From: a virus
DNA: 21,185 bases
Virus record (IMG/VR): IMGVR_UViG_3300047359_000608
Span: 1 to 21,185 of that record
Reading direction: 5' to 3' (one strand)
Part shown: in pieces, positions 8,347-20,170 of the stretch
How positions within the stretch are numbered: the stretch's first letter is position 1
Layout of the letters: every line of letters begins with the position of its first letter
The notes under the pieces: generated by a model
What the model was told of the DNA's origin: nothing
The model's database searches: none
What the model saw: the letters and a program-made list of their open reading frames with translations, nothing else
Made by a program: the position numbers and the translations under genes

Positions 8347-8544
8347 ATGCAGACAACCAATACCCAATCCGTTTACAAGATTAACTCAGAAGACATTCTA
8401 TCTAAAGGGCTAGAGGCCATGACTAGATCGTGTGAAGCTCTGACCAAACAGAATGAAACTTTAAACAAGGACATAGATAACTTGAAGAATAAAGTTAATA
8501 TGCTCCAGCATCGCCTCCTGTCTAACGCAGAGGAGCGAGAATAA
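8347..8544 (+). CDS. Small coiled-coil protein (65 aa)
   Basis: The ATG abuts the previous stop. Residues 14-60 form one amphipathic helix (EDILSKGLEAMTRSCEALTK and NETLNKDIDNLKNKVNMLQH) with leucines spaced like a coiled coil. It is the last gene of the plus-strand block; its stop is two bases before the 5' arm of the long RNA helix at 8546. No function is recognised. Confidence 0.65.
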   Translation: MQTTNTQSVYKINSEDILSKGLEAMTRSCEALTKQNETLNKDIDNLKNKVNMLQHRLLSNAEERE

Positions 8545-8545
8545 C

Positions 8546-8661
8546 TTTGTTAGTGTCTCAGCTGCAAAAGAGTAAGTCGTGAGTGCTCCGGATAAGGTCG
8601 TATTCAACCTATTATAAGGGGTTGCCGTTAGCCAGCCCTTCCAAACCACGACGCTAACAAA
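8546..8661 (+). ncRNA. Putative structured RNA closing the early operon
   Basis: TTTGTTAGTGTC (8546-8557) is complementary to GACGCTAACAAA (8650-8661) over 12 bp with one G-U pair. The 92 enclosed bases can form three further hairpins: 8570-8574/8584-8588, 8595-8598/8607-8610, and 8617-8624/8633-8640 with loop CCGTTAGC. GTCGTG (8576-8581) can instead pair with CACGAC (8647-8652), competing with the closing helix. The outline is cloverleaf-like, but there is no T-loop GTTC, no anticodon arm of normal length and no CCA end, so it is not an ordinary tRNA. A strong terminator follows after five bases. It may be a stable 3'-UTR element or a processed RNA. Confidence 0.45.
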
Positions 8662-8666
8662 CTAAG

Positions 8667-8694
8667 GTCCTCCAGGTAACTGGGGGGCTTTTTT
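8667..8694 (+). terminator. Intrinsic terminator of the plus-strand block
   Basis: GTCCTCCAG (8667-8675) pairs with CTGGGGGGC (8680-8688) around GTAA, including two G-U pairs, followed by six Ts (8689-8694). The T tract is on the plus strand, so it ends the early transcript just before the convergent virion block. Confidence 0.85.
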
Positions 8695-8702
8695 ATTGTC
8701 CC

Positions 8703-11700
8703 CTACAGGACTCCCCTAATTCTTAGTGCTTGAAGCACGGAGTCAGATAGAAGACCCTTGCGCCTAAAGTCGTTGATCATGCCTGGGTTCTTAGATAGAT
8801 AGTCTACCTTCTCATCTGTATCCATGTTCCGGATCAAAGTATCCTTCTGGTTCAACCCCTTGCTTGCATTCTTCTGCTCGCGTATCCACATATTCATTAG
8901 CCTCTTTCCCACGATTGGGTCCTTCCGAATTTCCTTCTTTATGTTGCTACGCTTCTGCTGCATGGTATCACCCATTTCGTTGTATATGTCAGATGTAGAT
9001 TTCTTTAATGCCCTTGGTAAGTCTGATGGAGAGTTGTCTAATATTTCTAACACTCTCCTAGACGAAACCTTTGCGTTCTTGAATATCTCTATGCGCTCGT
9101 TCTCGTCGTAGCCTAGAGTAATCAAACTCTCGTTGTTCTTGGACAAAGCGGCAAAAGCGTCTGAATAAATCTTGTTAGCTTTTTCGTAAGCTTGGTTTAA
9201 CTGTGCCTCTGATGGCTCTCCAAATTTTAATAACTGATTGTAGTCTGACTTGGCCTCATTGGATAAAGTGTTGGTGTTTCTAATTGTAAACATTGCAGCC
9301 TCACCCACGTCAAACGGGTTGATACGTGCTCCCAACTGTCTTGCCCCAACCTCTTTGAGTGTGAGGTCACCCTTACCAAGACGAGCCTTCTCTAGCTTCT
9401 TTAGCTCCCTGCTGAACCCAGGTCTAAATGATTCCGTCAGGAAGAATCCCAAACGCTCTCTGGCTTGATCTAACTTGTCTACTTCCTTAGATATTAGTTC
9501 ACCTCGCTCGTCTCGGTTAGCCAATGCTTGATACGCTGATTGAAAGACGAAGGAACCTTCTCCTATAAACTCTTCTGCCATTAGTCCAATGACTGACTGC
9601 TCGCTGTCCCCGCTCAAACCAGCCTGTAGGGCAGACAAACCAAGAGCGTGCGGCACTACATAACTGGGGTTGGCTACCCAACCTGTGCGCCCTCCCTTAT
9701 CTAGTTTAACTAATTGGTTTCTATTCTTATCCCAAGGTGCGTATACAACGTCACGAAGTGCCTCTTCTTTTTTCTTGTCTACTCCAGAGGCAGCCTTTAC
9801 TCCCTCTATTCCAGCATAGGTAGCTCCGTAAACACCAAGTAAAAAAGCAAGTCTCTTGCTTCCTTCAACTCTCATGCGAGTTACGTTAGCTGCTCCTAGT
9901 TCCCCAAACTCTTCACCAAAGTTTCCTGCTATCATACGAGCAATCATTTTGCCTTGGTTGTATTGATTCCGAGCAAACTCAGCCGTGAACGATGCAAACT
10001 GTGGCATGACACCCCAACGAGAAAGGGTGCGAACTACATTGCTCAACTTATCGTAATTCTGATAAGTGTCGTTGATCATCATAGCAGCCTGCTTCTTGAC
10101 CACCTCGTCGCTGGCATTGGGGAACATCTTACGCACGGTGTTCTGGTTGGCTTTCCAACCCACATACCTGCCTACCGTATCAGTTGTTTGATATGCTTTA
10201 CCAAATGGGTCTAGTCCTTTTTGTAAAAACTTGGAGAATGGCCCTGAGTCCAGGGTTGATCGAATGTCTGATTCTAGGATGTTGGCATTTTTAATGCCAT
10301 ACTTATCCATATCTTCTATTTCGTCTAGAAACGCCTTGCGAGCCTTCGGAGTATTTTCTAGACCCTCTAAAGCGCGAGATATCAGGGGAACGTCAGCTAG
10401 TGCCAAGCGAAAGCCACGTCCTGCCTTATTAAAAGGATTAATTCCCATGCCCAAGAGGTTAGTAGCACTACCATATGCGTTAACAGGATAGGATACAGTA
10501 TTTAATAAGACCTTTACCCCCTTGGACAAACCAACACCTGCCCTGTATAAATCCTGTAGACCATTGAGGAATATGTTGTCCATCTTCTCAGAGCCATTGC
10601 CAACATACAGTTCATTGAGTGCTGTTTGAACCTGTGGATATGCAAATAATCCAGAACCTTCCTTGCCTGTTCCCCGCAGCACAAGCTCAACCATTTCATT
10701 ATCTGCCTTGGTGGTAGAAGCTATGCCAGCATCAACTAGTTCTTTGCCTAGGATGACATTAGTTCTTTCTCTTGCTACTGACTTAGCAACGCCAGTTAGT
10801 GTTCCCCTCATGCGCTCTACGGGGTCTTTGATTTCTCCTAGCCAAATCTTTTCTGCTTCACCAGGCTCTCCTCTTTTCTTAAATACAGAATCGACTCCGC
10901 CCCCAAACAACGCTGTTGGATTTTCTTTTTTAGTAGACGCAAAATTCTTTTCGAGGTAGTCAAGATGCTCTTCTGCCTTAGCAAAAGCAGTTTTATTATC
11001 GTCTCCCTTTGCTACAAAAGAAGCTATTAATTCGTTTCGAGCCTGCTGTTTTTGTTTTGGATCGGCTTTGTATTTGGGGTTTAAGAAAGCCTCGTACTCT
11101 CTCCTAGCATAACGCTGGCTTGAGTTCATTGAGTCGTTAATGGTTTGCCTTAGCTTCTCTCTGGCCTCGTCATCTAAGGACTTGTATGCTCCGTCATCAA
11201 TTAGCTGTATGGCTTCCTTCTGCAAAGCTTGTCGAGCCTCATCATACTTTGTTAGATCAGCCTTAAGAACCTTAGCTACATCGTCCGACATCTCACCAGT
11301 ATCTAAGAACTTATTGATAGGTGCTTCTAGTGACGGATCTTTCTTTATTGCTCTTGCAGTCTTGGCTCCAATCCTACCAGAAATCTCTTCCGCTGTCTTA
11401 ATGATTCTAGAGAAATCAATGGTTGCTTGTTGAGCCTTTGTTCCTACGAACTTAGAGGGTGCTACCGAGGCTAGTATCTTGCCCATAGTTCCAAGGTTTG
11501 CCTGGGGCTGTGTTAGAGCTTGTGCTGCTGCCCTGCTCCTTGCTCCATCCTTAGTTTCTTGTATGCTGCGAAGCATAGTTTTTTCTACTATTCCCTTAAG
11601 GGCAGGATCAACGGTGGGTTGTGCTATATTAAAATCAATAAGGTCTTCGTCAATATTATGCTCTATTAACTTTTTGGCTTCTGACTCATTTGAAATCTTT

Positions 11701-13046
11701 GAACGCCCCAATAGCCGTAACTCATCATCTACAATCTTACCATCTTTAAATATATCAAAACTACCATCATCATTTTTCTTGTAGGTATAATCGGCTAGTT
11801 TAAATCCTTCAGGGAAATTCATTACAGCGTCATCCATATTGAAACCAGCTTCTTTATCTAGAGTTTGTAAATTAATATCTTGAAAGGGTTCATCCCTGAG
11901 GACAACGTCTGAACGATTAATTTCCTTAACTTGTTTAGATGTTGCTACATCTAGAAGAGGCTCTCCGTCGCTCCCTTTTCCTATTCTCTTTCCACTTACT
12001 TCATAGACTTTTTTATTTGAAGCAATTAAAGCATCCTGAGTTGCAATGCCCCTCTCGTATGGATTATCTAGAATTATATATTTCTTAGTTTTAGGGTCGA
12101 AGTATGCTGAGTAAACTGAATGTCCTATTTCCTGCTTGCCCGTATTTCCGATTTCAGAAGCACTTGGAGGTAGTCTCCCAAAACGAATATATGTCCCTTC
12201 TATCTTGTAAGGAACTCCATCTTTCTTGAATTTTATTATAGGTTTTGTTGGATCGACCTTAGGTGTCGCGGCGGGTCCTTTAGCTTGCACTTGATCTGGA
12301 AAAAAAGATAAATCCTTAAACGTAATCTCTTCTCTAGCAATAGCATCATCTATCTGTTGTGGTGTCTTACCCGCAAACTTCTGTCCAATCTTAGTAGTCA
12401 CACCACCAAGAGCACCACCAAACAGCGCACCTGCTCCACCAAACTGAGCTAGCTCCTCTGCTGTGGGCAGACGGCCTTCATCTATAACAGCCCTTGCTGT
12501 AGCGTCTGTAACGCCAAATGCAGCCCCTTTAGCGGCTTCTCTACCTGCCACCTTACCCAGAGTCATGCCTCCCCTTATGCCCTTGCCTACGCCCCCAGGG
12601 ATAGCACCAATGGCTGCTGCTGCTATAGCACGACCCATAGACTTATCTTCCTGCCCCTCGATGTCTTGTGCAAGTAGGCTACCAAAGAATGAAGCTGTTG
12701 CTCCACCAAGAGAAGCTCCTATGGCGGCTCCCGGAACTGCTCCTATACCAAAGAACGCAGAGCCTAATGCGCCACCAAGAATGCCACCAAGAACAGAGCC
12801 ACCAATTCCAGCTCCTACCTCTACGCCTACACCCTTTACAATGTCTCCAGCACTAGGGTCTGTTAGTTCACATAATCCCGTATCATTATTTAGGGTATAT
12901 CCAGTAGGGCATTGTGTATCAAGCGGAGTTCCAAATTCAGGAACATTAGAAAAATCACTTTGAAATTGAGTAGATTCTTTAACGGGAGTTCCAAATTCTA
13001 AAAATTCCCCAACAGGAGTTCCAAATTCAGGTATTTCTCTTGCCAT
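8703..13046 (-). CDS. Giant internal-virion-type protein (1447 aa)
   Basis: At 1447 residues this is by far the largest gene, lying last in the minus virion block. Residues 7-41 hold EFGTP repeats spaced in multiples of ten. A Cys pair follows in CPTGYTLNNDTGLCEL (46-61), then a Gly/Ala-rich hydrophobic region (about 66-130, with many GxxxG spacings). The rest is mostly charged helix, apart from a beta-rich section near 270-400. A segment near residue 1010 (WGVMPQFASFTAEFARNQYN) resembles domains seen in large polyvalent or ejected phage proteins. Size, hydrophobic region and position suggest an internal core protein released into the host with the DNA, comparable in role to T7 gp16. I see no lysozyme or transglycosylase motif. 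Function is inferred from architecture. Confidence 0.75.
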   Translation of the reverse strand: MAREIPEFGTPVGEFLEFGTPVKESTQFQSDFSNVPEFGTPLDTQCPTGYTLNNDTGLCELTDPSAGDIVKGVGVEVGAGIGGSVLGGILGGALGSAFFGIGAVPGAAIGASLGGATASFFGSLLAQDIEGQEDKSMGRAIAAAAIGAIPGGVGKGIRGGMTLGKVAGREAAKGAAFGVTDATARAVIDEGRLPTAEELAQFGGAGALFGGALGGVTTKIGQKFAGKTPQQIDDAIAREEITFKDLSFFPDQVQAKGPAATPKVDPTKPIIKFKKDGVPYKIEGTYIRFGRLPPSASEIGNTGKQEIGHSVYSAYFDPKTKKYIILDNPYERGIATQDALIASNKKVYEVSGKRIGKGSDGEPLLDVATSKQVKEINRSDVVLRDEPFQDINLQTLDKEAGFNMDDAVMNFPEGFKLADYTYKKNDDGSFDIFKDGKIVDDELRLLGRSKISNESEAKKLIEHNIDEDLIDFNIAQPTVDPALKGIVEKTMLRSIQETKDGARSRAAAQALTQPQANLGTMGKILASVAPSKFVGTKAQQATIDFSRIIKTAEEISGRIGAKTARAIKKDPSLEAPINKFLDTGEMSDDVAKVLKADLTKYDEARQALQKEAIQLIDDGAYKSLDDEAREKLRQTINDSMNSSQRYARREYEAFLNPKYKADPKQKQQARNELIASFVAKGDDNKTAFAKAEEHLDYLEKNFASTKKENPTALFGGGVDSVFKKRGEPGEAEKIWLGEIKDPVERMRGTLTGVAKSVARERTNVILGKELVDAGIASTTKADNEMVELVLRGTGKEGSGLFAYPQVQTALNELYVGNGSEKMDNIFLNGLQDLYRAGVGLSKGVKVLLNTVSYPVNAYGSATNLLGMGINPFNKAGRGFRLALADVPLISRALEGLENTPKARKAFLDEIEDMDKYGIKNANILESDIRSTLDSGPFSKFLQKGLDPFGKAYQTTDTVGRYVGWKANQNTVRKMFPNASDEVVKKQAAMMINDTYQNYDKLSNVVRTLSRWGVMPQFASFTAEFARNQYNQGKMIARMIAGNFGEEFGELGAANVTRMRVEGSKRLAFLLGVYGATYAGIEGVKAASGVDKKKEEALRDVVYAPWDKNRNQLVKLDKGGRTGWVANPSYVVPHALGLSALQAGLSGDSEQSVIGLMAEEFIGEGSFVFQSAYQALANRDERGELISKEVDKLDQARERLGFFLTESFRPGFSRELKKLEKARLGKGDLTLKEVGARQLGARINPFDVGEAAMFTIRNTNTLSNEAKSDYNQLLKFGEPSEAQLNQAYEKANKIYSDAFAALSKNNESLITLGYDENERIEIFKNAKVSSRRVLEILDNSPSDLPRALKKSTSDIYNEMGDTMQQKRSNIKKEIRKDPIVGKRLMNMWIREQKNASKGLNQKDTLIRNMDTDEKVDYLSKNPGMINDFRRKGLLSDSVLQALRIRGVL
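12925..13028 (-). repeat. 30-bp-spaced repeat encoding EFGTP decapeptides
   Basis: GGAGTTCCAAATTC occurs on the plus strand at 12925-12938, 12985-12998 and 13015-13028, so the copies lie at multiples of 30 bp. A degenerate unit sits at 12955-12968, in exact register. In protein terms this is a ten-residue repeat at residues 7, 17, 27 (degenerate) and 37. Confidence 0.8.
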
Positions 13047-14599
13047 TATATTAACGTATATCCAGCAGCTTTTGCTTCCTCGACTTGTTCAACGGGAACA
13101 TTTCTTCGTTGAACTCCGTCTGGGTGCATCATTATTGATGTAGCCCCACTGGTGTTGCTCTTGCCACCATCATCATCGCCTCTCATAAACCCTACGACTG
13201 GGTCAAATATCTCAGAAACCTTTCCTCCCATTTGTTGAATAATATACATAGCTGCCTGAGCCTCGTCCTCTAAAATAGGCTTGCCGTCAACTTTGGTGTT
13301 TAACATTTCTTGAGCAACCTTAACTACTTCCCTGAATTTCTCAGGTTCAGTCTGTTGATACTGGGCTGTGTAGGCTTGTATTCTTTTGTTGTTAAGAACC
13401 TGACCTTCAACTCTATACTCTTCGTATTGTTCCTTGAGTTGACTTATAGCACTGTTTTGTTGAGCTTGGAATGCCTTAACTCGTGCGTTATAATCTTTTG
13501 TTTTTTCTCTTGCCCCTTTTGGAACAAACTTACGAGCTTCTTCAAAGGACATTTCACCGCCTCTGTCTGTTCCCTCGGTGCGAGAGTCAGCTATCCGTGT
13601 GTCACGTTCTTGTAGGGTTTCACCAGGGCGAACATCACGCTGCTCTAGTCTAGCTAGTCTATCTAACGAAGCTTGATTAAACGCAGATCTGTCATCTCCT
13701 TGCGAGATCATACGACCTTGTGCGTCTGTTTTCATACCAAAGTCTCCTACGCCTGCGGGAAGATTAAGTATAGAATTTATTGTAGGTGTTTCAAATTCCT
13801 GTGATTCTAAAAACGGAGTTCTGCTGTAACCAAGGTTTGGATCAAACGTAGTTCCCATGCTTGCAGCAAAAGCATTAGCCTCATTAATTTGCTCTGGCGT
13901 TAAAACGCCCTGTGCTCTTGCATTTAAAAAGTTAGCTTGAGGAGAACCAGACTGAGCCTCTTCGTTTAATCTAGAAAGAGATTCTGCTTTCATTGAATCA
14001 GAAACTTCTGGGCTTTTTAAAAACTGAGAAAGGTCATTGACTTCGCCTGCCCCCTTCAGTGAGTTAGAAAAAATGTCTTCACCAGTAAAGAAGTTTACTG
14101 CATCTCTGCCAAGATTAATAGTACCAGGCACAACTTTATCAAAAAATAAATTACCCAACGTAGAACCAACACCGCCAGAAAATCTAGTATCTACTCCAAA
14201 ATTATCTGGAGATTGAAACGATGATTCAACTAATGGTTCAAAATCAACTCCACTTAAATCTAAGTTGCTAAAATCTGGTGTTCCAAAATTCATAGGAACA
14301 GGTGATCCAATATTTACTGATCCTAATCCAAACAATCCACCAGGTGTTTGTCTTGGTTTATTTAACGCAGCACCGACGCTAGCTAATCCAGATAATAAAT
14401 TTCTTTCAAACAAATCTTCTTCTTCTTCTTCAAACTGAAAGGCTTGCTGAGGCGCACCAAAGCTCTGCTGACCTAGCAGAGAAACTGGTTGCATCATGGC
14501 GTTCGTAGTAGCCGCTTGGTTCATAGTCATACCTGCGGGTAAACTAAACGACGAAGGCTCGACGTTGAATTGTGAAAATGGATTGTAGTTAATAGCCAT
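13046..14599 (-). CDS. Internal-virion-type structural protein (517 aa)
   Basis: The protein is rich in Gln, Asn, Ser and Phe at the N-terminus, with an acidic run FEEEEEDLFE (56-65), a Pro/Gly-rich linker and the motif MNFGTPDFSN (103-112), which echoes the EFGTP repeats of the next protein. Residues about 310-430 are highly charged helix (EQRDVRPGETLQERDTRIAD and KGAREKTKDYNARVKAFQAQ). There is no enzyme motif. It joins the 1447-aa gene by TAATG, so the two products are probably made together and act together in the virion. The structural role is inferred from neighbours and composition. Confidence 0.7.
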   Translation of the reverse strand: MAINYNPFSQFNVEPSSFSLPAGMTMNQAATTNAMMQPVSLLGQQSFGAPQQAFQFEEEEEDLFERNLLSGLASVGAALNKPRQTPGGLFGLGSVNIGSPVPMNFGTPDFSNLDLSGVDFEPLVESSFQSPDNFGVDTRFSGGVGSTLGNLFFDKVVPGTINLGRDAVNFFTGEDIFSNSLKGAGEVNDLSQFLKSPEVSDSMKAESLSRLNEEAQSGSPQANFLNARAQGVLTPEQINEANAFAASMGTTFDPNLGYSRTPFLESQEFETPTINSILNLPAGVGDFGMKTDAQGRMISQGDDRSAFNQASLDRLARLEQRDVRPGETLQERDTRIADSRTEGTDRGGEMSFEEARKFVPKGAREKTKDYNARVKAFQAQQNSAISQLKEQYEEYRVEGQVLNNKRIQAYTAQYQQTEPEKFREVVKVAQEMLNTKVDGKPILEDEAQAAMYIIQQMGGKVSEIFDPVVGFMRGDDDGGKSNTSGATSIMMHPDGVQRRNVPVEQVEEAKAAGYTLI

Positions 14600-14612
14600 A
14601 ATAAATTAGTAG

Positions 14613-15362
14613 TTATCGAGCTGAGAAAGTATTCTTGTTGGGCACAGTTGCCCGATTCATTGAAGAGCCAACTCTCTTGCCCTGGCTTCTAACTGGTATT
14701 GACCCAGATTGACCAAAAAGAGAGTCCATAAAACTACCTTCTTGCCCAGTAAGACCGTACAGTTGATTTGCTCGACTTATATAATTAAACAATTCTCCTA
14801 CATTTTGACCGCCTCCCAATAAAAATTGCATTGGGTTTTGTACAAATTGACTTAAAGATTGCTGTAAAGAATTTGCCCTTTGTTGTTCGGGAGTTACCTC
14901 TGGTAGAGTTGTATAATTTGGCAAATATCTGCCAGAGGCAGCTTTCATTTCTTCAGCACTAACTGGTCTTCCATCAAGCATATAAGTTCTATTTGCAATT
15001 TGGCGAGCAGCATTACGATCTCTGTTTTCTTGAATTTGTCGATCACGCCTTGATTGCTCTAACTCAGCTTCTCTTTGAGCTAATTGAAATTCAGCCGCAT
15101 CTCGCTGGTATCGCTCTGCTCTTTCTTTAAACTGTTGTTCCTCAAGCTCCTCAGGGGTAAGTTCGGGTTCAGGTCTTCTATATACATTAATTCTAGACTG
15201 TCCCCCTATTTGGTTTTGCCCCATGAATCCACCCGTTGGAATAGAATATTTTAGTTCAAGCGGCGAAGATTGCTGTTGTTGTCCAAAGACGGGACCACGA
15301 TAATTTCTTCCTCCAGGTCTGTAGCGATCTGCTTCTGCTGATTGTCCAACTCTAAGTGCCAT
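14613..15362 (-). CDS. Putative virion protein with Gln/Arg-rich coiled coil (249 aa)
   Basis: The product starts with a Gly/Gln-rich, probably disordered segment (ADRYRPGGRNYRGPVFGQQQ). Residues about 70-125 form a charged helix (ELTPEELEEQQFKERAERYQ, then LAQREAELEQSRRDRQIQEN) suited to a coiled coil. The C-terminal half is Gln/Ser-rich. No family is recognised. Its ATG is directly preceded by a 4 x 8-bp AT-rich repeat and a promoter-like TATAAT, so it is probably the first gene of a separately boosted late sub-operon leading into the 517- and 1447-aa genes. Confidence 0.7.
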   Translation of the reverse strand: MALRVGQSAEADRYRPGGRNYRGPVFGQQQQSSPLELKYSIPTGGFMGQNQIGGQSRINVYRRPEPELTPEELEEQQFKERAERYQRDAAEFQLAQREAELEQSRRDRQIQENRDRNAARQIANRTYMLDGRPVSAEEMKAASGRYLPNYTTLPEVTPEQQRANSLQQSLSQFVQNPMQFLLGGGQNVGELFNYISRANQLYGLTGQEGSFMDSLFGQSGSIPVRSQGKRVGSSMNRATVPNKNTFSAR

Positions 15363-15394
15363 AATGTTTTAATGTTTTAATGTTTTAATGTTTT
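15363..15394 (-). repeat. Tandem repeat, four copies of AATGTTTT
   Basis: Four perfect 8-bp units lie directly upstream of the ATG at 15362 (minus-strand reading AAAACATT x4, then ATG). The copy number could slip during replication and shift the distance between promoter and start, or the A-rich leader may aid initiation in the absence of a Shine-Dalgarno. Confidence 0.9.
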
Positions 15395-15399
15395 AAATG

Positions 15400-15441
15400 A
15401 AGGGGTTAGTCCTATTATACCATAGGGGGTAAGGGGTTAGT
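15400..15441 (-). promoter_or_regulatory. Probable late promoter flanked by 11-bp repeats
   Basis: On the minus strand a perfect TATAAT (15414-15419) lies about 50 bases upstream of the 249-aa gene. No TTGACA-like -35 is present; that place is taken by one copy of ACTAACCCCTT (15431-15441), and a second identical copy (15400-15410) lies downstream of the -10. The copies are 31 bp apart, close to three helical turns, as expected for an activator or repressor pair. Confidence 0.55.
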
Positions 15442-15443
15442 TG

Positions 15444-16094
15444 TTATAAAAATTCAAGACCTAAAGTCGCAGAGGCATTGGCACTTCCAGTGTTTGGTAT
15501 GCAAATATCGTCAGGGAACTCAATGACAATACTCACTTCTAATGTAACAGAATAATAAGCAGGAACAACAGATGCGGGCAGCGTCTTAGTTAACGAGCCA
15601 CTTAAACTAGGAAAACCGTTAAAGTTCTCTCCAGTCGTGTTGTCAAGAAATTGTATATTGCTAGATGTGTCAATTACCTGACCAGCACTAGCTGAAGCTA
15701 AACCATTGTAAGTTATTTTAATTTGAAAACTTTGCGTTGCTTGATAAGCAAAGCTTAACCCTGTTACTATTGTAGTCCCTCGATTAGAACTTGCCGAATT
15801 GCTTGCAGAAAAATTACCAGTGGCGGTTTTTACTGATCCAGAATTAGAGGTTGCCGAACTTTCAGTAGGTGAATCTCCACCTGGAGTAGATTCACACCCA
15901 GTATGTGTAGTTAAAGTTTTACTAAGAACGTCGTTATACCTCCAAGGCCAAGCTGATGAAGAAGTTGTATTAGCACAATTAACTGGATAAACACTGACAT
16001 TAGCAAAGCTACCAACAATAAGTGGGTCTTGCTCGTTTAAAAATGAGTCGGATGAACTTGCGAATGGACCTGCTCTTAGGATGGCATTGGGCAT
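15444..16094 (-). CDS. Putative virion structural protein (216 aa)
   Basis: The N-terminus MPNAILRAGPFASSSDSFLN, followed by a segment with Pro-Val-Asn-Cys and SSSAWPWRYND, resembles small structural proteins I associate with marine phage contigs. The middle is Ser/Thr/Asn-rich and the C-terminal 110 residues alternate hydrophobic and polar residues as in a beta sandwich, ending ASATLGLEFL. There is no catalytic motif. It follows the 148-aa gene by TAATATG and lies in the fibre/tail gene group, so a tail or capsid decoration role is plausible. Confidence 0.65.
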   Translation of the reverse strand: MPNAILRAGPFASSSDSFLNEQDPLIVGSFANVSVYPVNCANTTSSSAWPWRYNDVLSKTLTTHTGCESTPGGDSPTESSATSNSGSVKTATGNFSASNSASSNRGTTIVTGLSFAYQATQSFQIKITYNGLASASAGQVIDTSSNIQFLDNTTGENFNGFPSLSGSLTKTLPASVVPAYYSVTLEVSIVIEFPDDICIPNTGSANASATLGLEFL

Positions 16095-16095
16095 A

Positions 16096-16542
16096 TTAGT
16101 TTACTCCGCTTCCACTAAAGGTTGCTGTTCCAGCCGTGTTGTCGCTTTTGACTATGTCTAAGGTAAAAGTTCCAGACTCTTCGCCACCGCCCGGTGATCC
16201 ATCAGCTCCATTCTCTGGATAACTGCCAGTAGTGTCTGTAGAGTCATCGTCGGTAGTTGTATTTCTGTTTGTTGGATTATCCTGTTTTTCCCTTCTCTCG
16301 TTCGCGTCTCTAATTACTTGATCTCGCTCTTTTCTTAAGTCACGTTTATCTCTCGTGTCAGTTGCGTTATTTATAGCTTCTTTGTACCTGTCCTCAATTT
16401 CACCTATGGAGTTATCGAAATCTCGATCCTCTTGTCGTCTTCGTTGTCGATCGTGTGCATTTCTTTCTCTTGCTTGCTGATCCAAGCGTTCACCTTCTTT
16501 CGCGGCATTATGAAAAAATCTTTGTTTGTCAGTTACTGGCAT
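16096..16542 (-). CDS. Charged putative structural protein (148 aa)
   Basis: Residues 1-90 are almost entirely Arg, Asp, Glu, Gln and Lys in a predicted helix (RQRRRQEDRDFDNSIGEIED and KRDLRKERDQVIRDANERRE). A Thr/Asp linker follows, then a Gly-rich turn (NGADGSPGGGEESG) and a short beta-like end (FTLDIVKSDNTAGTATFSGS). The design suggests a coiled-coil shaft or connector carrying a small beta unit. It is linked on both sides by TAATATG junctions. No family is recognised. Confidence 0.65.
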   Translation of the reverse strand: MPVTDKQRFFHNAAKEGERLDQQARERNAHDRQRRRQEDRDFDNSIGEIEDRYKEAINNATDTRDKRDLRKERDQVIRDANERREKQDNPTNRNTTTDDDSTDTTGSYPENGADGSPGGGEESGTFTLDIVKSDNTAGTATFSGSGVN

Positions 16543-16543
16543 A

Positions 16544-18652
16544 TTAAAGGGTAGGCCAAGTGTATGTTACGGGCGGTATTAATGTAAAAGTATCACCCGC
16601 ATTTATTGCGAGAGAAAGACTGGTGGTAGCAATCCGAAAAATATTACTCTTGGTCCTCCTATCTGCGACAAGAACTATTATTGGAAAATCATGGATACCA
16701 ACTCTTAATGACCATCCTGAATAATCAATATTGTAGTTGAGGGGGGGGACTGATCCATCATATTCTAGTCGCTGTTGTTTAAATGGCGTAAACTCTCCCG
16801 TAACTGTAATGCTACGGTAGCTGCTGGTCGCTCTCTTGTTATGTACTACAGTTCCATTTACGTCGTATCTAGACAGTCTTATTCTAGCAAAATCATAGTT
16901 AGTAATATCAGATTCTGTCCCTGACCTGTAACGACCTGCCGCCTGATTGTCATTAAGATTGTTAACTAGCAAAATTTTATTGCTTTCTGGGTTATAGCCA
17001 CTAACCATAAATCTTTGAAGATCTTTAAAGGCATTAGTACTATTTAAATCTCTAGCATACACTTCAAGCAATGCCCCTTGGTAGTAATCATCTTCTTCAG
17101 AATATAAACTTGCGTCTAGTTCTAACGTCCGGGCTGTTGTGCTTCCTCCAGTAATATTGCTAACTGCAGTTACGGCATCAGCGGTATAACTGGCTAGCTT
17201 ATTGTCCGTCGAATCCCCACTAGAAGCGTCATCTACAGCATCTCCCTTTACATCTTTAACCGTTACTGTTTTCCTATAATATACGACTCCATCTATATCT
17301 TTAAAATCTGGTTGAATTGTAATGTTGGTTACATATTTTTTTCCTACAGGGTTTTCTGGACCTCCCCCTATTTCAATGATTGGTGGAATTTTATTAGCCA
17401 TTTGATAACCATCTATAAAAACAGTCATTCTCCTCCCAGTTGAACTAGCATTACTTAATGATCGAGGAGACGAGATATATCGCTCTAATCCTGAAGCAAA
17501 TTTACTTCCAGTCACAGGGTCTTCCTCAAACCTTATTAAATTTTCTGGTGCTCTGTACCCTCTATATGCCTTTGATACGCTGAACGGTTTATTTTTTTTA
17601 TCAATTCCGGTAATTCTAGAACTAGCCCAGCTTCCTGGACTCCACAGACCAGTTGCACTACCTAACCTGTAATCAGCACTTTGTATTTCTTTTTCGGTTT
17701 GCAAATACTCTAGTGTTTGAGTAGGACAAGAAACGTCAATTGGACCCCTTAGATCAAAAGAAAAATTAATATAATTATTTCCCAGAATAGTGCCATCGGT
17801 CTCCGTAGTAAATTCTGTGTTTGCGTTTTCTCTTAGACTAACAAGGCCAGGTACAGAAAAACTTGAAATGCTTGATGTTGTTTTTACTAAATTTGGTTCA
17901 GTTGATGATAAAGCAGAGCCAGTTGAATCTAAAATTTCAGTAACGGTAAAAGTGGATAAACCCTCAAATGATCCTGTGTCTCTTCTAGTAACAATGCCAA
18001 GAGCTGTTGGCTCGACTGCCAAGTAACTAGTAACCCGTTGTTGCAATGAACCATCATCCATGTCCACAGTTCCCCTGTTAAGGATTCCTGCCTGAAGCCA
18101 GGTTTCAACTACTTCTACGTAACCAACCTCGTAATCTCTTTTGGAAGTTTCTAGGGCGCGAGACAAGTAAAGAGTTACTGGTTGGTCTGTTGATGCTCCA
18201 TGACCCACGCTTGTTATGGATGAACCAGTACCAACTTCTTTAGAATATTCTGATCCATTCAATGCTACGACCGATCTAGTAATACGCATTAAACCATTAA
18301 TCTCAAAGTCTACCTTGTCGGCTACGTTTTGTACGAATTGGTCTGTAAGAGTTTCATATGTAAATAAAATAACATACTCCCCCGTTTGCGTATAAGATGC
18401 CTCGTTCTTAACTAGAGCCATATTGCTATAAGCCTCCCCGGTGCGAGAAGGAATGCCGTCAATAGACATTTCAGCATCATACAATGTTCCAAAGTTGGCA
18501 AATATCTGATCTTTGTTTTTGTCGTACCAAGCCTCAGTATCATTCTTGGCTATGCAACGAACGGTCATTCGGTAACGATTGCCAAATAGTTGTTCAACCT
18601 CGGGTTTATTTCCGTAGATTTGAAGCCTTTGAGTTCTGTGATATACTGCCAT
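16544..18652 (-). CDS. Large tail/virion structural protein (702 aa)
   Basis: The 702 residues look beta-rich throughout, with many alternating Thr/Val/Tyr strands. The N-terminal 150 (MAVYHRTQRLQIYGNKPEVE, then GEYVILFTYETLTDQFVQNV and INGLMRITRSVVA) resemble a structural protein seen in marine phage contigs beside tail fibre genes. No hydrolase motif or collagen-like repeat is visible. It begins at the stop of the fibre-like gene (TAATG), suggesting the two form part of one adhesion or tail assembly. A run of eight Cs in coding sense (16741-16748) does not break the frame. Confidence 0.7.
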   Translation of the reverse strand: MAVYHRTQRLQIYGNKPEVEQLFGNRYRMTVRCIAKNDTEAWYDKNKDQIFANFGTLYDAEMSIDGIPSRTGEAYSNMALVKNEASYTQTGEYVILFTYETLTDQFVQNVADKVDFEINGLMRITRSVVALNGSEYSKEVGTGSSITSVGHGASTDQPVTLYLSRALETSKRDYEVGYVEVVETWLQAGILNRGTVDMDDGSLQQRVTSYLAVEPTALGIVTRRDTGSFEGLSTFTVTEILDSTGSALSSTEPNLVKTTSSISSFSVPGLVSLRENANTEFTTETDGTILGNNYINFSFDLRGPIDVSCPTQTLEYLQTEKEIQSADYRLGSATGLWSPGSWASSRITGIDKKNKPFSVSKAYRGYRAPENLIRFEEDPVTGSKFASGLERYISSPRSLSNASSTGRRMTVFIDGYQMANKIPPIIEIGGGPENPVGKKYVTNITIQPDFKDIDGVVYYRKTVTVKDVKGDAVDDASSGDSTDNKLASYTADAVTAVSNITGGSTTARTLELDASLYSEEDDYYQGALLEVYARDLNSTNAFKDLQRFMVSGYNPESNKILLVNNLNDNQAAGRYRSGTESDITNYDFARIRLSRYDVNGTVVHNKRATSSYRSITVTGEFTPFKQQRLEYDGSVPPLNYNIDYSGWSLRVGIHDFPIIVLVADRRTKSNIFRIATTSLSLAINAGDTFTLIPPVTYTWPTL

Positions 18653-19920
18653 TATGATGCGACTGCTTTAATTACTGCAAAGTTAAGTTTAATAGTGTCG
18701 GTCCTAGAAGCTCCGCTTACATTTAAAACACTTATGCTACAGCTACCTGCAGCTACGGCTCCTACAGTAACTTGATATGATCCAGCTACCGCAACACCAC
18801 TAGCAACATTAACAATAACAACATCTGTTGCAGCTATTGTGCTGTTAGTCAATGTAAATGCAGCAGTAGCATCATCCGCCAACGCTTCGGCATTCATTAC
18901 AATTTCACCGTTTATTTTATTAAGGGTAACGGCAGTAGTTTTGCTTGTTCCTTGAGTAACAGTTCCACCACTACCAGCCTTATAGCCTAACGTCGTAGTA
19001 GCTAATACATTAGTTCCTGTAACGGCAGCAGGGGTAGTAGCACCAACTGTTCCATCAATGGCTCCCGCAAACTTAGTGCTAGCAGTAATAGTAGTTCCAG
19101 TAACAGCAGCAGCCGTAGTTGTACCAGATATGTCTAAGTCTTTGCTAATTACTACCTTTTCTCCGCTGTTAGTGGTGGTAAACTTTAAATAACTATTTGT
19201 AGACTCAGTAATATCTAAAGCATTAGCAAGATTGTCCGTAAGAGTAATTTTGTTATCCCCAGTGTCAGTTCCATCAAAAACAACATTTAGCCCAGTTGAG
19301 GCATCATCAGAAGAAATTGTGTCACAGTTAATGTTACCAACATTAGTAATATCTCCATCTGATACACTTATTGAGGTAGATGTTAGGGCAGCAGATGTTA
19401 GGGCAGCAAATGTTCCAGCAGCTGCGGAGTTAGCACCAATCACGGCTCCATCAATAGCCCCACCATCAATGTTAACTGCATTAGAGTTTTGGGAAGCTAT
19501 TGTTCCGGCATCAGATATAGTGCTTATGGTCTGCGTTCCAGTATGGTTAGCTCTTTGAATAGCTTTATCATAAACAGAACTTTGTTGTGTAGAAGACCCA
19601 CTCGGCACGTTATCTACTATAAGTGTAGCAAGTTCTATCGTAGAACTTCCTGCAGGTATAATAAATTTAGCTCGTTCTCTATTTGGAAAAACTACCTCAT
19701 AAACACTATCAATGCCAGATTTACCATTCCTGAATAGACTTACACTCCCGTCACCATTAGCATCACTTGTTGCTGTTACAGTCCCAGGTAAGACAACATA
19801 GTCTTGAGTTCCAGAGGATGCCTCAGCACCCGCACTAAGAAGGGTAAAGGTTAACGTCTGATTAGCGTAGTTAGCGTAACCAGCGGTTTTTAAATTAAAG
19901 TTTACAGTTGTACTAGCCAT
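18652..19920 (-). CDS. Tail-fibre-like protein (422 aa)
   Basis: The N-terminal 110 residues form a likely beta-sandwich virion-attachment domain (TVNFNLKTAGYANYANQTLT and onward). Then comes the fibre signature HTGTQTISTISD (126-137) and AIDGAVIGANSAAAGTFAAL (155-174), familiar from marine phage fibres. The shaft is Thr/Ser/Ala/Gly-rich with repeated alternations such as TTTAAAVTGTTITAST. Residues about 315-422 form a tip domain of short strands (VVIVNVASGVAVAGSYQVTV) ending NFAVIKAVAS. It should bind the host surface. No chaperone or endosialidase motif is seen. Spacing to the upstream gene is 13 bases, and the next gene starts on its stop. Confidence 0.8.
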   Translation of the reverse strand: MASTTVNFNLKTAGYANYANQTLTFTLLSAGAEASSGTQDYVVLPGTVTATSDANGDGSVSLFRNGKSGIDSVYEVVFPNRERAKFIIPAGSSTIELATLIVDNVPSGSSTQQSSVYDKAIQRANHTGTQTISTISDAGTIASQNSNAVNIDGGAIDGAVIGANSAAAGTFAALTSAALTSTSISVSDGDITNVGNINCDTISSDDASTGLNVVFDGTDTGDNKITLTDNLANALDITESTNSYLKFTTTNSGEKVVISKDLDISGTTTAAAVTGTTITASTKFAGAIDGTVGATTPAAVTGTNVLATTTLGYKAGSGGTVTQGTSKTTAVTLNKINGEIVMNAEALADDATAAFTLTNSTIAATDVVIVNVASGVAVAGSYQVTVGAVAAGSCSISVLNVSGASRTDTIKLNFAVIKAVAS

Positions 19921-19933
19921 AGTTATTTATAAA

Positions 19934-20170
19934 TTAACATTTCCAACGCTTCAATGCAAGTGCCTTGCGTGTTGGTCTTCCCTTCTCGTCCTTCATTGGA
20001 CCCTTAACGCCAGACATCCTGGCACAAAATGATTTCTTTCTAGCTAGCTTCTTGCCTTTTGGATTAGATTCAGTAACAGGGGGCTTGAGGTTAGCACCAG
20101 TCTTGCGCTTGAAGTGAGCACGACCAGCCGCCGTGAGTCCTCCCTTTTTACTTTTGTGTTCCTTCCTCAT
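19934..20170 (-). CDS. DUF6321-like basic protein (78 aa)
   Basis: The sequence is Lys/Arg-rich with recognisable blocks KKGGLTAAGRAHFKRKTGAN, then LKPPVT, KSFCARMSGVKGPMKDEKGR and PTRKALALKRWKC. This small protein recurs in marine phage contigs and, to my memory, in some other aquatic viruses, where it carries a DUF6321-type label. Two Cys and strong basicity suggest nucleic-acid or virion-interior binding. Its ATG overlaps the TGA of the upstream gene (ATGA). The function is unknown. Confidence 0.8.
   Translation of the reverse strand: MRKEHKSKKGGLTAAGRAHFKRKTGANLKPPVTESNPKGKKLARKKSFCARMSGVKGPMKDEKGRPTRKALALKRWKC

Follow-up and report, generated by a model that had tools for sequence, protein, structure and literature searches.

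Does the gap between the early and the late genes of this marine phage contain an RNA, how is it folded, and what might it do? The window, i.e. the whole stretch of 21,185 nucleotides analysed here, is a virus record from the IMG/VR database. A sequence-only reading had proposed for this gap a structured RNA of no class known to it, in which a 12-bp long-range helix encloses three hairpins, with a rival pairing that could switch the structure. An alignment of 37 distinct related gaps (alignment A2) bore out a conserved structured RNA between the early and late genes. It comprises about 90 bases directly 3' of the last early gene, but its fold differs from the one proposed.

The conserved fold of the gap RNA

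The individual elements of the proposal were all found in the sequence. The 12-bp helix pairs TTTGTTAGTGTC (8546-8557) with GACGCTAACAAA (8650-8661) and includes one G-U, the enclosed hairpins and the gap are as stated, and the RNA does lie at the 3' end of the early transcript beside a terminator, between a stop codon at 8542-8544 and a terminator stem starting at 8664. Folding of 8546-8661 gave -34.5 kcal/mol compared with -24.7 +/- 3.4 kcal/mol for shuffled sequences (z -2.9; 2 of 200 shuffles equal), thus this segment has more structure than expected by chance. The gap region has no conspicuous promoter on the same strand, which agrees with co-transcription from upstream.

In the 37 relatives the conserved fold consists of two hairpins, F and C, and of two helices that cross, A and D (Table 1). 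F and A build an H-type pseudoknot, C and D a second one, and the two pseudoknots are interlocked. This fold was paired in 99.9% of cells of the alignment, with 17 double-changed cells versus 4.2 in shuffles, and shifting the helix partners along the alignment abolished the pairing. Both F and D were 100% paired, and in D a compensatory change from U-A to C-G was seen. The 8-bp hairpin at 8617-8640, present as claimed, is conserved as hairpin C, which was 99.5% paired with G-C replaced by A-U in seven relatives. Helix A, formed between UCGUG within the F loop (AAGUCGUGAGU in RNA letters) and the downstream CACGA, was invariant in the 37 relatives and covaries elsewhere, to TTGCG/CGCAA in L165, L166 and L170 and to TCGTG/CGCGA in L168 and L174. 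The supposed rival pairing GTCGTG/CACGAC is therefore present, but as part of the conserved fold and not as its competitor. Indels in the variable hairpins, such as the length changes in the loop of hairpin B, are not multiples of three, so the gap is not coding.

Table 1. Position of the gap RNA, its helices and the adjoining features in the window
Feature	Position	Strand	Description
Last early gene	8347-8544	+	65 aa; conserved beside the RNA in 55 fetched loci
P0, 5' hairpin	8546-8568	+	directly after the stop codon; TTTGT (8546-8550) with GCAAA (8564-8568)
Hairpin F	8570-8588	+	GAGT (8570-8573) with GCTC (8585-8588); 11-nt loop AAGTCGTGAGT (8574-8584)
A, pseudoknot 1	8577-8651	+	TCGTG (8577-8581) with CACGA (8647-8651); 3' strand preceded by conserved AAC (8644-8646)
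E, short helix around B and C	8590-8642	+	GGA (8590-8592) with TCC (8640-8642)
B, small variable hairpin	8595-8610	+	AGGT (8595-8598) with ACCT (8607-8610); alignment A2 read by eye
Hairpin C	8619-8638	+	GGGTTG (8619-8624) with CAGCCC (8633-8638); loop CCGTTAGC
D, pseudoknot 2	8627-8658	+	loop GTTAGC (8627-8632) with GCTAAC (8653-8658), 3' end
Intrinsic terminator	8664-8696	+	3' of the RNA; only in part of the window clade

The 12-bp enclosing helix fared differently. It is the most stable nested fold predicted for the window sequence (-34.9 kcal/mol versus -19.8 kcal/mol when F was imposed and the pseudoknot strands were kept free, in a calculation that does not score pseudoknots), and nine of the 37 relatives, which share the same 5' allele, have at least eight long-range pairs in the predicted fold. 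Across the 37 gaps, however, it was paired in 58.6% of cells compared with 58.8% in shuffled columns and showed a single double-changed pair, and in most relatives a local hairpin replaces its 5' strand. That strand is one allele of the local hairpin P0, which was predicted in 27 of the 37 folds and has different stems at the same place (TTTGCGG..CCGCAAA, TTTGCAGT..ACTGCAA, TTTGTAGG..CCTACA). A 12-bp helix around hairpins that possibly switches with a rival pairing is accordingly a very improbable description of the conserved structure. Pairing of this P0 allele with the 3' end in the nine relatives reflects either chance or an allele-specific alternative fold. The allele (window 8546-8557; also L020, L027, L035 and L062) resembles the D strand GTTAGC. 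U-rich/A-rich hairpins like P0 were also seen by eye upstream of the core in L088, L096, L138, L139 and L123.

Relatives and spread among phages

Relatives were gathered via the metallophosphoesterase gene upstream of the gap (73 loci) and via a large late gene (nine loci), and the RNA was present in about 50 of the fetched loci. In several of them late-gene identity is down to 23-30%, or the late genes are unrelated, yet the RNA core is still about 75-90% identical. The early module and the RNA are kept and the late modules replaced exactly at this border (window 8703-20000; L001-L083). None of the late proteins of the window matched a PHROG except one, of unknown function.

Scanning IMG/VR for exact matches to a pattern of the conserved loop and downstream AACC(ACGA) yielded further contigs. 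Chance matches were mostly located in coding sequence and had no helices; true matches were intergenic and contained all or most helices in different sequences. The same architecture recurs in about 17 further phage lineages, where compensatory changes are numerous, and the unpaired loop bases AAG, AGU and AAC are constant across these unrelated phages. Among 18 lineages D was fully paired in 18, C in 17, F, with differing stem sequences, in 16 and E, of 3-5 bp, in 15. None of 5000 partner shuffles reached these values, although the test is generous since the alignment was segmented by hand. D occurs in at least ten different sequences: in addition to GUUAGC/GCUAAC of the window, GUCAGC/GCUGAC, GUUCGC/GCGAAC, AUUCGC/GCGAAU, GCCCCC/GGGGGC, UGAGC/GCUCA, AGAGC/GCUCU, GCUGC/GCAGC, GCUGU/ACAGC, ACUGC/GCAGU, UUCUCC/GGAGAA, UUCAGG/CCUGAA and CGGCC/GGCCG were found.

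An automatic structural descriptor detected 20 copies beyond the window clade, whereas reversed sequence gave none; as these loci had been fetched by their loop sequence, only the remaining helices count as independent evidence. Likewise, a covariance model built from the window clade alone, with the pseudoknots left out, recovered distant copies such as those in L150 (6e-15), L174 (2e-14), L123 (4e-9) and L096 (3e-7), E-values that are flattered by the preselection of these loci with a short pattern. A BLAST search with the RNA in 50,697 phage records gave short chance matches only and no isolated phage with the long form, short diverged RNAs being below the reach of BLAST. In GTDB genome contigs there were just two matches, one in a window-clade contig from a marine bin (L130) and one in a Rubritalea bin (L131), the latter with a weak second pseudoknot. 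About 25 further pattern matches, as well as L152 and L153, were discarded as doubtful or due to chance.

Kinship with Proteo-phage-1

The statement that the RNA belongs to no class held for the Rfam search, in which the window RNA matched no family. It needs qualifying for the pseudoknot core, which is that of Proteo-phage-1 (RF03044). With the RF03044 model the window gave no match at the cut-off or at E<=10, nor did the long forms L118, L168, L123, L180 and L181, and no other Rfam 15 family (tRNA, tmRNA, riboswitches, ribozymes, sRNAs) reached its cut-off at the RNA; ARAGORN found nothing in the window. The connection came from an IMG/VR scan with the F hairpin and loop, which also returned a short form in which F is succeeded almost immediately by AAC and the A' strand. 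Two short forms, L191 (79 bits) and L182 (74.3 bits; cut-off 42), matched RF03044 aligned exactly on the motif and carry the identical 12-nt loop of the window, AAGUCGUGAGUG; in the Rfam search of many relatives these were the only hits at the RNA. Six more short copies (L185, L192, L193, L196, L198 and L186) matched at the right place below the cut-off. In a negative control, a pattern of the Proteo-phage-1 loop with a long insert gave nine matches, and by eye no proper F hairpin was seen in any of them.

Both RNAs have a hairpin with the loop AAG-N-AGU followed by G, invariant in A2, and in both the loop pairs with a strand that follows AAC. In the window RNA this is helix A, found in 37 of 37 relatives and covarying in L165 and L168; in Proteo-phage-1 the pseudoknot is our reading of the RF03044 model consensus. 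They also share a hairpin 5' of the pseudoknot (P0 in the window clade), albeit of different sequence, and the phage or prophage setting. The window form differs in having about 55 nt between F and AAC, comprising E, B, C and the second pseudoknot, compared with a third loop of about 20 nt, and in the pseudoknot sequence, UCGUG/CACGA versus GCCGG/CCGGC in the model consensus. As the window RNA itself does not match RF03044, the kinship rests on the intermediates and a short motif, and the RNA appears best described as an enlarged Proteo-phage-1 variant, not as a member of RF03044. We know of no established function for Proteo-phage-1 RNA. The long form may already figure, unnamed, in earlier listings. 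If it is joined to Proteo-phage-1, what was a small catalogued motif becomes part of a wider superfamily whose core can be tested.

Genomic context and possible function

In most lineages the RNA is located 3' of a same-strand gene, usually about 20-120 nt away. It follows tRNAs in L165 and a tmRNA in L139, and in L168 and L174 a tRNA-Arg comes after it. Such a position 3' of upstream genes or tRNAs fits a cut-out or trimmed 3' part of a transcript and not a leader or riboswitch; the downstream gene, which is often on the opposite strand (window, L088, L185, L198), likewise argues against a riboswitch. The neighbours include TerS/TerL (L093, L115, L118, L141), TerL (upstream of the RNA in L191 and L202), portal (upstream in L185 and L198), ligase/PNK-like proteins (L085, L096), a PIF1-like helicase (L123), ParB-like or methyltransferase genes (L165, L180) and a primase (L150), where the names for L085, L096 and L123 and the terminase names for L093 and L115 come from reading the sequences. 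The differing neighbours show that the RNA is not tied to one gene.

The fold, conservation, spread and 3' position are observed directly, whereas transcription, processing and action in trans are inferred; a processed, trans-acting phage small RNA seems most likely. We consider it somewhat probable, taken as a whole, that the gap encodes a stand-alone processed non-coding RNA, an enlarged Proteo-phage-1 variant of about 90 nt plus the 5' hairpin, which acts in trans. It would be transcribed from the upstream early promoter, end at or near the terminator and be cut or trimmed from the 3' end of the early transcript. A hairpin pseudoknot of the Proteo-phage-1 type (AAG-N5-AGUG) would carry the domain of E, B and C inserted in its third loop, and the second pseudoknot, D, would lock the 3' end, so that two interlocked pseudoknots hold a few unpaired bases (AAG, AGU, AAC) in position. 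Through these conserved loops the RNA may act on a host or phage factor, either a protein or ribosome-related. Against this account, a terminator is not visible in several relatives, and the most stable nested fold predicted for the window sequence is the 12-bp helix. Retention of the RNA by many unrelated phages amid gene exchange suggests that it likely has a useful role not yet named in phage biology.

A considerably less probable view is that the knotted fold merely shields the end of the early mRNA from exonucleases as a cis-acting element, with no separate small RNA. The prevailing location 3' of a same-strand gene or tRNA would suit this, as would the window itself, where the RNA begins two bases past the stop codon and the terminator is next. 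However, stability alone does not require constant unpaired AAG, AGU and AAC in unrelated phages, and some copies lie between same-strand genes without a terminator. The same few fixed unpaired bases in a compact pseudoknot, and the tRNA or tmRNA genes adjoining several copies, would also suit self-cleavage: a ribozyme built on a double-pseudoknot core could trim the early transcript, or the precursors of adjacent tRNAs or tmRNAs. HDV-like and pistol ribozymes are compact, pseudoknotted and self-cleaving, and HDV-like ones occur near phage tRNAs. We nevertheless regard a ribozyme as unlikely: as far as we know these ribozymes, the topology is unlike theirs, with a different helix order and different conserved bases, no Rfam ribozyme family matched, and a conserved cleavage-site context was not recognised. 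Finally, the location of the gap exactly where a kept early module borders replaced late modules could suggest an element acting as DNA, for instance an inverted-repeat site for recombination or replication, alongside which late modules are swapped. Invariant G-U pairs (A2 columns 41-53 and 97-110) and crossing helices fit RNA instead, and the mostly single orientation relative to the upstream gene also speaks against such a site, making it a very remote prospect.

The stable RNAs C and D of phage T4 (rnaC, rnaD) are, like the gap RNA, small phage RNAs beside tRNA genes, to our knowledge without known function; they were rejected as relatives, as a scan of the T4 tRNA region with the structural descriptor came back empty. 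A likeness to short stretches of 16S rRNA was set aside because it is short and unsupported.

In part of the window clade a 66-nt RNA gene follows right after the gap RNA (L028:2560-2625, + strand; also L029, L030, L037, L042, L043, L047, L048, L097 and L111). It matches Rfam tmRNA (47-54 bits) but consists of the tRNA-like part only, with a T arm, an acceptor stem containing G3-U70 (alanine identity) and a short hairpin in place of message and pseudoknots. Compensatory changes in L030 (GGGGAUG/CAUCUCC to GGGGGUG/CACCUCC) indicate that it seems to be kept by selection, and it is possibly a tmRNA decoy. In an unrelated 95-kb contig the conserved RNA comes 34 nt after the end of a full-length phage tmRNA (L139:3296-3732, - strand), which scored 118 bits with Rfam and was missed by ARAGORN. 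With a reduced tmRNA after the RNA in one clade and a full tmRNA before it in an unrelated phage, the RNA could represent a broad phage superfamily that cooperates with tRNA-like RNAs to rescue ribosomes or take over translation, a reading which we hold to be improbable. Permuted tmRNA genes (RF04321), unannotated in the records, were also observed in L212:1471-1673 (Stenotrophomonas phage BUCTxx99) and L213:1469-1768 (Pseudomonas phage PA_L9), and two type II hammerhead ribozymes (L181:1157-1221 and 2008-2074) precede a long-form copy of the RNA by about 3-4 kb.
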